A stretch of DNA of 64,000 nucleotides, taken from positions 69,093,356-69,157,355 of the forward strand of contig NC_054740.1 of NCBI RefSeq assembly GCF_018143015.1, written 5' to 3'. The stretch's first letter is position 1, and the number at the start of each line of letters is the position of its first letter. The stretch comes from Lytechinus variegatus (taxonomy: Eukaryota > Echinodermata > Echinoidea > Temnopleuroida > Toxopneustidae). The notes beneath the pieces are model-generated. The model was not told the DNA's origin, did not search any database, and saw only the letters and a list, made by a program, of their open reading frames with translations. Below, piece after piece: positions 498 to 55,958 of this stretch. The translations under genes were made by a program, and so were the position numbers.

Positions 498-1317
498 TTT
501 ATTTGCAAACAACATACTGAATAATGGAAAGTATAACACATCAAAAATGCGTTAAGTCCTGAGAAGAATAATGGAATGTCTGTGGCTGCATCCGGTATAC
601 TGTAACAATATTAGACACAAGTTACTGCTGGTTTATTGCCACATCTTGCCATGGCACACTCCCGGCAGGACTGCAAAAGTAATTCTTGAGGTATGCGCGC
701 AGTTCTTTGCCTGGTCGGGTCAATCTTGGCCCGTGCCCTGCTGCTTGCACATCTTCGAGCACGGCTTGGTCTCGCCATGCACCCGCGATGATCTGACCCT
801 GCTCATCTTCCCGGTCGAGGTCAGCATTCTGAAGGTTGGGGTAACGAGTCCTCATGAGGTTGTGAAGGGTCATGCAGGCCTTGACGATCTTGGTAACTTT
901 CGACGGTCTCAATCCCAGGGTTGTTAGCAGACATCTGAAGCGATTGGCGAATATACCAAACGCGTTTTCAACCACACGGCGTGCCCTGGAACACCGGTAG
1001 TTGTAGATCCGCTCGTCCCGTTTCAGGTGCCGATGAGGGTAAGGCTTCATCATGTATGGCCGTAGGGGGAAGGCGTCGTCTCCGACCATGTAGTAGGGTG
1101 TGTCCTGGTCGTCATTTGGTAGGGGATCCGGCTGGGGTAGTCCGATCGTTCCCTCACGCAGACCTGGCTCCAGTCGCGACCGGTTAAAGATGCCGGCGTC
1201 GGAATATGACCCTGGTGACCCCACATCCGCCCAGATGAACTTGTAGTCAGAGTTTACCACTGCAAGCATGACGATGGAAAAGAAGCCTTTGTAGTTGTAG
1301 TAAAGTGAGCCGCTCTT

Positions 1318-1322
1318 GGGGG
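1318..1322 (-). other. Frameshift at a five-C run in the transposase
   Basis: The minus strand reads Lys-Lys-Pro-Pro up to a run of five C. Upstream homology (GAIDGKHVAIKKPP) is in one frame and downstream homology (SGSLYYNYKGFFSIVMLAVV) is in another. One base is missing relative to an open frame. Confidence 0.8.
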
Positions 1323-1611
1323 CTTCTTGATGGCGACATGTTTCCCATCGATCGCGCCACAACAGTGGGGAAAGTTCCATCTGTCTCCGAATCCCTCGGC
1401 TACCGGGCGCCACTCATCTTCTGTCTGGGGAGTGGCCCACATCTCGTCCTCGTATTCGTCGTAGATGGCCTGACAGACCTCGGGGACGAACAGAGAGATG
1501 GTGTTGTGTGGGACACGAAACGCGAACGCCAGATCATGATAGCTGCTTCCGGTCGCCAAGAACCTCAAGGTGATCGCCAGCTTCAGCCCAGGATCCAAGG
1601 GGGTTCGATGC

Positions 1612-55094: not shown

Positions 55095-55264
55095 TATGTG
55101 TGTGTGTATTTTAGTTTTGTCAGACGTGTATCAATCAGATATGATTATTTACGTCTGGGACCGACCTTTAACGTCACCATCCGAAAGACGTGACCAGGGC
55201 TCGAACCTCTGCATCAATTTGTTACTTCCCCACAGCTTGGATTACAGGCGCACGCCACAACGCC
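55095..55264 (-). mobile_element. SINE with a 7SL RNA-like head and Pol III boxes
   Basis: Read on the minus strand from 55264, the head CTGGGCGTTGTGGCGTGCGC, then CTGTAATCCAAGCT, matches the 5' domain of 7SL RNA at about 27 of 34 positions by eye (human 7SL from memory). An A-box-like TGGCGTGCGCC is followed about 50 nt on by a perfect B box GGTTCGAGCCC. The body has GTCACGTCTTTCGGATGGTG and GACGTTAAAGGTCGGTCCC. The 3' end is a CA microsatellite (TGTGTGTGTAT on the plus strand), a usual SINE tail. tRNA-derived origin remains possible. Confidence 0.65.
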
Positions 55265-55958
55265 CAGTTGTGGGGGGGGGGGGCTGCTAAAAACGGGGCT
55301 TGTAGAGGGCAGCCTCCTATCAAAAACATTCTCATGAATACCATAAACCAAATAATACAAAATATTGTCAATTAACTATTCATCAGAGAAAGACAGAGAA
55401 AACTTGTTTAAGAATAAAGTTTTGATACATCGTATTTATCTTTTAAAGCCCTGTTCAGCGATACACATCATTCCTTTGTTTACTCATTCCACTCTACATT
55501 GTCTAATGGCAAACTAGGGGTGGTAAGTAAAGGAGTTTTGGTCACTGAAAGAGCATAATAGATATTAAGTACATGGGTGATGTTTTAGAATTTCATATTA
55601 GAATATTAGCTTTCTTATTTCATTAAATAAGTTGAGAAACTCAAACAACTAATTTTGACTTAAATTTTAGAATAAAAATGCATAGACATGAGACAAAGGC
55701 CAAAAATATTAATATGACATTTTCAATTTTGGTGGCGGTCAATGAATACTGGTATGATGCATTTACAGGATGGTATTAATTATACCAAAATAAACAGATA
55801 AGCTTACTGTGTGCTGCTGATAAAGTGGCAACTTGGGCTAAAGCTGTGGTAACACTAGATATGCTTTGTATTATCTGGCAAAAAGCACTATATAAATCCA
55901 GGGATTATTATTATTATTCTCATCTTAAAGGGAAGATCAGTTGAGTATAGGCTGTTGA
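55265..55958. other. Region downstream of the membrane-protein stop, likely partly 3' UTR
   Basis: G13 run near 55272, then AT-rich noncoding DNA. The 3' UTR of the minus-strand gene extends into it; its end is not defined. Confidence 0.45.
55818..55920 (+). repeat. SINE tail fragment with (ATT)n
   Basis: GGCAAAAAGCACTATATAAA followed by TCCAGGGATTATTATTATT is a characteristic SINE 3' end. Confidence 0.6.

Follow-up and report, generated by a model that had tools for sequence, protein, structure and literature searches.

The genome of the sea urchin Lytechinus variegatus contains a family of short interspersed elements (SINEs) headed by an exact copy of the first nucleotides of the host 7SL (SRP) RNA, the RNA that is also the source of the human Alu elements. 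The identity to 7SL, the high copy number, the subfamily structure and the low divergence of the sampled young copies are direct observations. Very probably, this is a young family whose head unites nucleotides 1 to ~45 of the host 7SL RNA with a tRNA 3' half, tRNA-Lys being the likeliest source; the body that follows is Meta-like, and the tail is a CA repeat. The copy described here in detail lies in the window, that is, the entire 64,000-nucleotide stretch of contig NC_054740.1 that was analysed. The boundaries of the element were set from copies with differing flanks and, read directly from the sequence, the window copy runs on the minus strand from ACTGGG, which is SRP position 1, at 55268 to the CA tail at about 55097 (Table 1). 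The strand, the Pol III B box and the separate body with a CA-repeat tail after this box that were reported in a preliminary description of this sequence are all present, and the ends have been redefined. No TTTT occurs inside the window copy.

Table 1. Parts of the SINE copy in the window (window coordinates)
Feature	Position	Strand	Basis
Entire SINE copy, from the 7SL-derived head through the tRNA-Lys-like B-box segment and the Meta-like core of the body to the conserved tail and CA repeat	55097..55268	-	
Head from 7SL/SRP RNA nt 1-~45 (5' domain of the Alu domain)	55224..55268	-	RF00017 match and identity to SRP genes
31 nt identical to host SRP genes L011 and L012	55238..55268	-	
A-box-like GGCGTTGTGG, 7SL-derived, element positions 5-14	55255..55264	-	sequence only
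TGT within CCTGTAA, corresponding to the UGU motif bound by SRP9/14 in SRP RNA	55244..55246	-	position only
Segment probably from the 3' half of tRNA-Lys; diverged, 7 nt shorter in the young subfamily	55196..55223	-	
Pol III B box GGTTCGAGCCC, element positions 62-72	55197..55207	-	sequence only
24-nt core CGTCTTTCGGATGGTGACGTTAAA, common to other SINE-like repeats of the same genome	55167..55190	-	
Conserved 3' tail region of the SINE	55108..55155	-	
(CA)n, end of the SINE tail	55097..55107	-	

The derivation of the head from 7SL RNA is supported by several lines of evidence. A search of the genome (869.6 Mb in 33 contigs) with the Metazoa_SRP model (RF00017) yielded 16 places, of which six scored above the cut-off, and four of these are intact genes with scores of 275-280 bits. 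The first 31 nucleotides of the SINE are the first 31 nucleotides of the SRP genes L011 and L012 (31 of 31, from SRP position 1); in two other SRP genes, L009 and L010, position 3 is different, and the exact run that they have in common with the SINE is 28 nucleotides long. Past nucleotide 31, there is one inserted A, after which the match goes on to approximately nucleotide 45, and the GGAAGT sequence also agrees between the SINE and the L011 gene. Local alignment of the complete element with L012 gives a score of 34, compared to a mean of 10.4 and a maximum of 21 among 1,000 shuffles of the element; for the head, the score is the same and the shuffle maximum is 16. An Rfam scan of the element alone listed no tRNA at E-values up to 10, whereas Metazoa_SRP was matched at positions 1-44 with 31.2 bits (E 7.5e-7); of the first 30 positions, 25 agree with the Rfam SRP consensus. 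The same model also recognized nine other copies of the SINE (L016-L024), with 32.5-36.5 bits, below the cut-off of 70. The resemblance of the head to the 5' domain of 7SL RNA, on which the preliminary description was built, is thus borne out, and the matching segment is present in intact SRP genes of the host. The A-box-like sequence lies within one base of the position published for the 7SL A box (positions 6-15; PMC7245038). Beyond the head, the SINE does not align to the host SRP RNA, that is, the 3' region of 7SL is not kept.

The 7SL origin holds for the first ~45 nucleotides only; the most plausible source of the part that carries the B box is the 3' half of a tRNA, probably one of the Lys type. 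In the oldest copy found (L023), the sequence from position 46 on aligns with nucleotides 28-64 of the host tRNA-Lys(TTT) with a score of 22, which none of 2,000 shuffles reached and which was not attained by any of 6,390 47-mers from the window either (maximum 17). The score declines to 14 in the intermediate form (reached by 2 of 2,000 shuffles) and to 10 in the young form (54 of 2,000). The sequence of tRNA-Met also beats most shuffles, with scores of 14 for L023 (2 of 2,000), 12 for the intermediate form (17) and 10 for the young form (31 of 2,000), and this result slightly lowers our confidence in the preferred explanation; the scores of tRNA-Tyr and of a tRNA-like gene in the window to this segment are not clearly above those of shuffles. 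The comparison included 11 distinct tRNA sequences, eight of them Lys-type, and the link to tRNA-Lys comes mainly from one ancient lineage, that of L023 and its near-duplicate L149 (97%). Judged by sequence, both Pol III boxes are internal to the element, and the B box does not come from 7SL. The SINE does not have the paired tRNA A box and B box of the SINE2 type: the A-box half is 7SL, and the B-box half resembles tRNA-Lys in L023. We interpret the element as a SINE of tRNA type, probably Lys, in which the 5' end of 7SL took the place of the A-box half.

The body of the SINE has a Meta-like core. The MetaSINE superfamily, reportedly described by Nishihara et al. in 2016, is marked by a 66-bp central domain, Meta, and its members are known to have tRNA-type heads. 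The 24-nt core of the present SINE, putatively part of this domain, also occurs in other SINE-like repeats of the genome that conform to a Meta motif; the head of the present SINE begins with 7SL. The core matches the repeat L119 in 22 of 24 positions (91.7%), a match that is partly circular in that L119 was fetched by the Meta motif, and it also matches the repeats L124, L127 and L129; in all four, a T-arm-like sequence can be seen by eye upstream of the core. The canonical core has 49 matches in the genome at no more than two mismatches, compared to 14 for the reversed control. Twelve of the core matches were fetched, four of which are the SINE described here (L120, L121, L122 and L130), and according to ARAGORN none of the 12, including those of L119, L124, L127 and L129, contains a tRNA gene. 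Sequences similar to the tail (78-81% over 42-45 nt) occur outside this SINE in eight loci examined (L019, L050, L063, L064, L067, L068, L070 and L073); none of these pieces could be tied to a reverse transcriptase, and no partner LINE was found for the tail. In four loci (L063, L067, L070 and L019), two or three copies of the SINE form head-to-tail arrays, joined via the CA tail, within a repeated flank.

The element is multicopy, as the preliminary description anticipated. Heads were counted at at least 2,343 places genome-wide (at most 3 mismatches in 32), bodies at 2,821 (at most 3 mismatches in 30) and the longer form of the B-box region at 1,519 (at most 3 mismatches in 31), with no matches to the respective controls (a reversed pattern in the case of the head); these counts may include uncollapsed haplotypes. 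With nearly as many heads as bodies, there is little room for a common population of the same body with another head: the two counts, a rough comparison of patterns of unequal length (32 and 30), leave at most a few hundred bodies, which could be truncated or mutated copies. In the search with the element, 39 of the 41 rows, drawn from the best-scoring 40 of 1,379 candidates, were other near-full-length copies with 98-99% identity, and the remaining ones were the element itself and a short partial match. The sampled copies, which are the best-scoring 40 of 1,379 and of 1,702 candidates, are biased toward young, similar ones; in addition, L131-L140 were picked by the helix-4 motif, and L141-L148 are eight of the exact-head copies listed on contig C1. 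The latter are spread along the contig; two of them are cut short, and the six full-length ones differ from a subfamily form by 0-3 mismatches, to which one copy adds a 1-nt gap and another has changed first bases.

The copies fall into subfamilies that differ in how much of the 7SL sequence is left. The sequence AAGCTACTTGG, close to the SRP helix-4 loop AGCTACTTGG, is carried by L023 and L149, the most diverged copies, and by L024 and L131; the helix-4 form CTGTAATCCAAGCTACTTGGGGAAG was found at 57 places genome-wide at no more than one mismatch in 25 (only two exact; none for the control). In the later subfamilies, this loop is lost, with AAGCTACGTGG or AAGCTATGTGG at the corresponding position of the intermediate copies and AAGCTGTGGGG in the young ones, and in the youngest copies the B-box region is 7 nt shorter. 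Positions 2-34 are identical in the young, the two intermediate and the L024 forms; the changes are found in positions 35-45 and in the B-box part. The family is young and recently active, with low divergence among the sampled young copies.

Target duplications are clear in a minority of the copies only. After 21 BLAST rows with incomplete ends, short flanks or repeated flanks were dropped, duplications of at least 9 nt beside the tail were found in 10 of 94 copies, compared to 0.39 expected from swapped flanks. Two of the ten (L072 and L080) appear to be duplicated flanks, leaving about eight convincing cases. In five of these (L130, L046, L018, L021 and L017), clean duplications of 9-13 nt abut or nearly abut the element at both ends; in the other three, the duplication lies upstream of the 7SL start, by 11 nt (L079), 12 nt (L143) and 28 nt (L081), as if the transcripts had started upstream or extra bases had been added. 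The remaining 84 copies have no duplication of at least 9 nt, and no convincing one flanks the window copy, where the best word is 5 nt. Earlier rules gave duplications of at least 8 nt in 5 of 38 copies, compared to 3.4% of swapped pairs, and of at least 9 nt in 10 of 88 copies, compared to 0.9%. Clustering of the 5' flanks yielded groups of 20, 4, 2, 2, 2 and 2 copies. Seven copies (L050, L055, L064, L068, L076, L084 and L085) lie inside a diverged minisatellite with a unit containing GGGTCTGGAGTAAAGACTACGCTATATTTCCA, most of them, L085 being an exception, at approximately the same place in the unit, which hints at a target preference.

Three other explanations of these sequences deserve consideration. 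The head might be collinear with 7SL over nucleotides 1-80, so that both promoter boxes come from 7SL as they do in Alu, B1 and the hagfish family; judging from the sequences, the CCTG that follows the B box indeed lies about as far from the head as it does in 7SL. From position 46 onward, however, the scores against the host SRP RNA fall inside the shuffle distribution in all 16 combinations of four SRP genes and four SINE forms (the smallest fraction of shuffles reaching the score is 0.163), so collinearity past nucleotide 45 was rejected, and with L023 lying far outside the shuffles in its comparison with tRNA-Lys, we regard this possibility as very unlikely. Conversely, the element could be an ordinary tRNA-derived SINE with a 5' half that resembles 7SL by chance, a notion to which the tRNA-like B box and the existence of Meta-like repeats with tRNA-like T arms (L119, L124, L127 and L129, by eye) might lend some credence. 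The 31-nt identity to the host SRP RNA from the very first base refutes this view, and the absence of control matches in the head count also speaks against it. In the direct comparison, the head scores 34 with the host SRP RNA and only 6, 9 and 12 with tRNA-Lys, the tRNA-like gene of the window and the head of a tRNA-like SINE, respectively, all within the shuffles (maxima of 12, 15 and 13); given these scores and the lack of an Rfam tRNA match, a tRNA origin of the 5' half was rejected.

Finally, there might be no SINE family at all, the copies being 7SL retrocopies fused to other sequences or a cassette that spread via duplication of a larger repeat. Such a scenario could account for the scarcity of target duplications and for the copies in duplicated or repetitive flanks, 32 of which clustered by the 5' flank. 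The same filter kept 88 copies, so the majority have unrelated flanks; moreover, a uniform chimera is present at more than 2,000 places on many contigs, and the clean duplications at both ends of five copies also speak against this scenario, which has a very low probability in our assessment.

As of 2024, primates, rodents and hagfishes are given as the only carriers of 7SL-headed SINEs (PMC10886601). The statement of the preliminary description that the well-known cases are mammalian is correct for Alu and B1; such SINEs are not confined to mammals, the hagfish SINE1 having been published in 2020 (PMC7245038). No echinoderm 7SL SINE was among the literature matches listed, which were open-licence papers, and the sea-urchin family looks like the first 7SL-headed case known in an invertebrate. 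The hagfish SINE1-1_EBu (Kojima 2020), with 2,363 full-length insertions, is likewise a young, 7SL-headed family in which 7SL is fused to a tRNA-type SINE lineage and the 3' end is a microsatellite (PMC7245038). In its head, however, the 7SL 5' region accounts for 96 bp and contributes its own B box, as opposed to ~45 nt and a tRNA-type B box in the urchin, and it further contains the 7SL 3' region and RTE-derived parts (PMC7245038); the urchin element has a Meta-like core and a CA tail and no 7SL 3' region. Alu and B1, the SINE1 elements of Euarchontoglires, share the 7SL-derived head, but these consist wholly of 7SL sequence, both the 5' and the 3' part of the Alu domain being present, end in poly(A) (PMC7245038) and belong to a separate host lineage. 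The 7SL 3' region that is needed for the full Alu domain, as in Euarchontoglires and hagfish, is missing here, where only the head aligns to SRP RNA. The joining of 7SL and tRNA parts is reminiscent of the tree-shrew Tu SINEs and the bushbaby GarnAlu (PMC7245038), although the urchin SINE occurs in another phylum, and all SINE1 families of Euarchontoglires are counted as descendants of one ancestor (PMC7245038).

Presumably, the 7SL A box and the tRNA B box act together as a hybrid Pol III promoter, and a LINE recognizing the 3' tail would copy the SINE RNA back into the genome. The junction between the 7SL and tRNA parts was probably created by template switching or by recombination between 7SL RNA and a tRNA-type SINE. 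By analogy with Alu, SRP9/14 may bind the 7SL part through its UGU turn along with helices 3 and 4, and the SINE RNA so bound might sit on ribosomes that make LINE proteins, as proposed for Alu. What SRP9/14 recognizes in the SRP 5' domain is the UGU turn, and its binding persists in a minimal Alu retrotransposon (PMC8137916). The UGU and the helix-3 sequence are retained in the SINE, and the 6-bp helix-3 stem is the fold predicted for four of six fragments, namely the 50-nt one of L024, the 78-nt one of the host SRP RNA and two from the young form; other folds are predicted for the 120-nt L024 and the 50-nt host SRP fragments, and the folding energy is within the range of shuffles in all six (z from 0.92 to -1.13). 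Given that the stem is predicted in only four of the six, that part of the helix-4 loop is lost in the young form and that the energies are not outside those of shuffles, the docking role of the SINE head is put forward as a hypothesis.

The alternative is that the 7SL head serves as a promoter only and SRP9/14 plays no part in the spread of the SINE. Only the 5' domain is kept, nothing past the head aligning to the host SRP RNA, and the young subfamily expanded despite the altered helix-4 loop, both of which favor this possibility. The constancy of positions 2-34 across the forms argues against it, in a suggestive way only, as the copies were partly chosen by that region; on balance, we would give the promoter-only role somewhat less than an even chance. 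The most far-reaching interpretation, which we advance tentatively and think more apt to fail than to hold, combines the docking role with a hybrid promoter: the sea-urchin family would represent the third independent birth of a 7SL SINE and the first in an invertebrate, in which a 45-nt 5' domain without the 3' domain binds SRP9/14 and docks on ribosomes on behalf of a non-L1 LINE, with transcription from a 7SL A box and a tRNA-Lys B box. An independent and structurally smaller case allows one to ask which part of SRP RNA is needed by a parasite RNA: should the 5' domain alone turn up again and again, docking via SRP9/14 would be the likely common cause, and should this domain prove dispensable, the cause would be the promoter. 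Sea urchins, with their easy embryos, lend themselves to experiments that distinguish docking from the promoter function.

Several additional observations were made in the same genome. In one locus (L013 at 900-1800, the place of L015), a 7SL gene is disrupted by ~0.5 kb of inserted sequence, which has inverted, GC-rich ends and a repeated GGGAGTCCTGT, and just upstream of this gene there is an old copy of the SINE, itself interrupted. Arrays of tRNA-Lys(TTT) genes, spaced by ~0.46-0.5 kb, are located at 23.487-23.499 Mb and 26.067-26.071 Mb of contig C4. The tRNA-like gene of the window, at 2806-2879, scores 60.9 bits with RF00005 and has the anticodon TCA; it is only 74 nt long and so is not a usual selenocysteine tRNA. 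An open reading frame for a DDE_Tnp_4 transposase lies ~1.4 kb from this gene (622-1413, minus strand). Bindin, a sea-urchin sperm protein, was detected with Pfam at two loci of contig C13, the best pieces scoring 232 and 225 bits; none of 14 prokaryotic control genomes gave a match. On this contig, L023 and L149 are at 23.39 and 17.04 Mb and the Bindin loci at 24.95 and 18.60 Mb, the members of each pair being ~6.35 Mb apart; this spacing suggests that the assembly contains either a large duplication or an uncollapsed haplotype.
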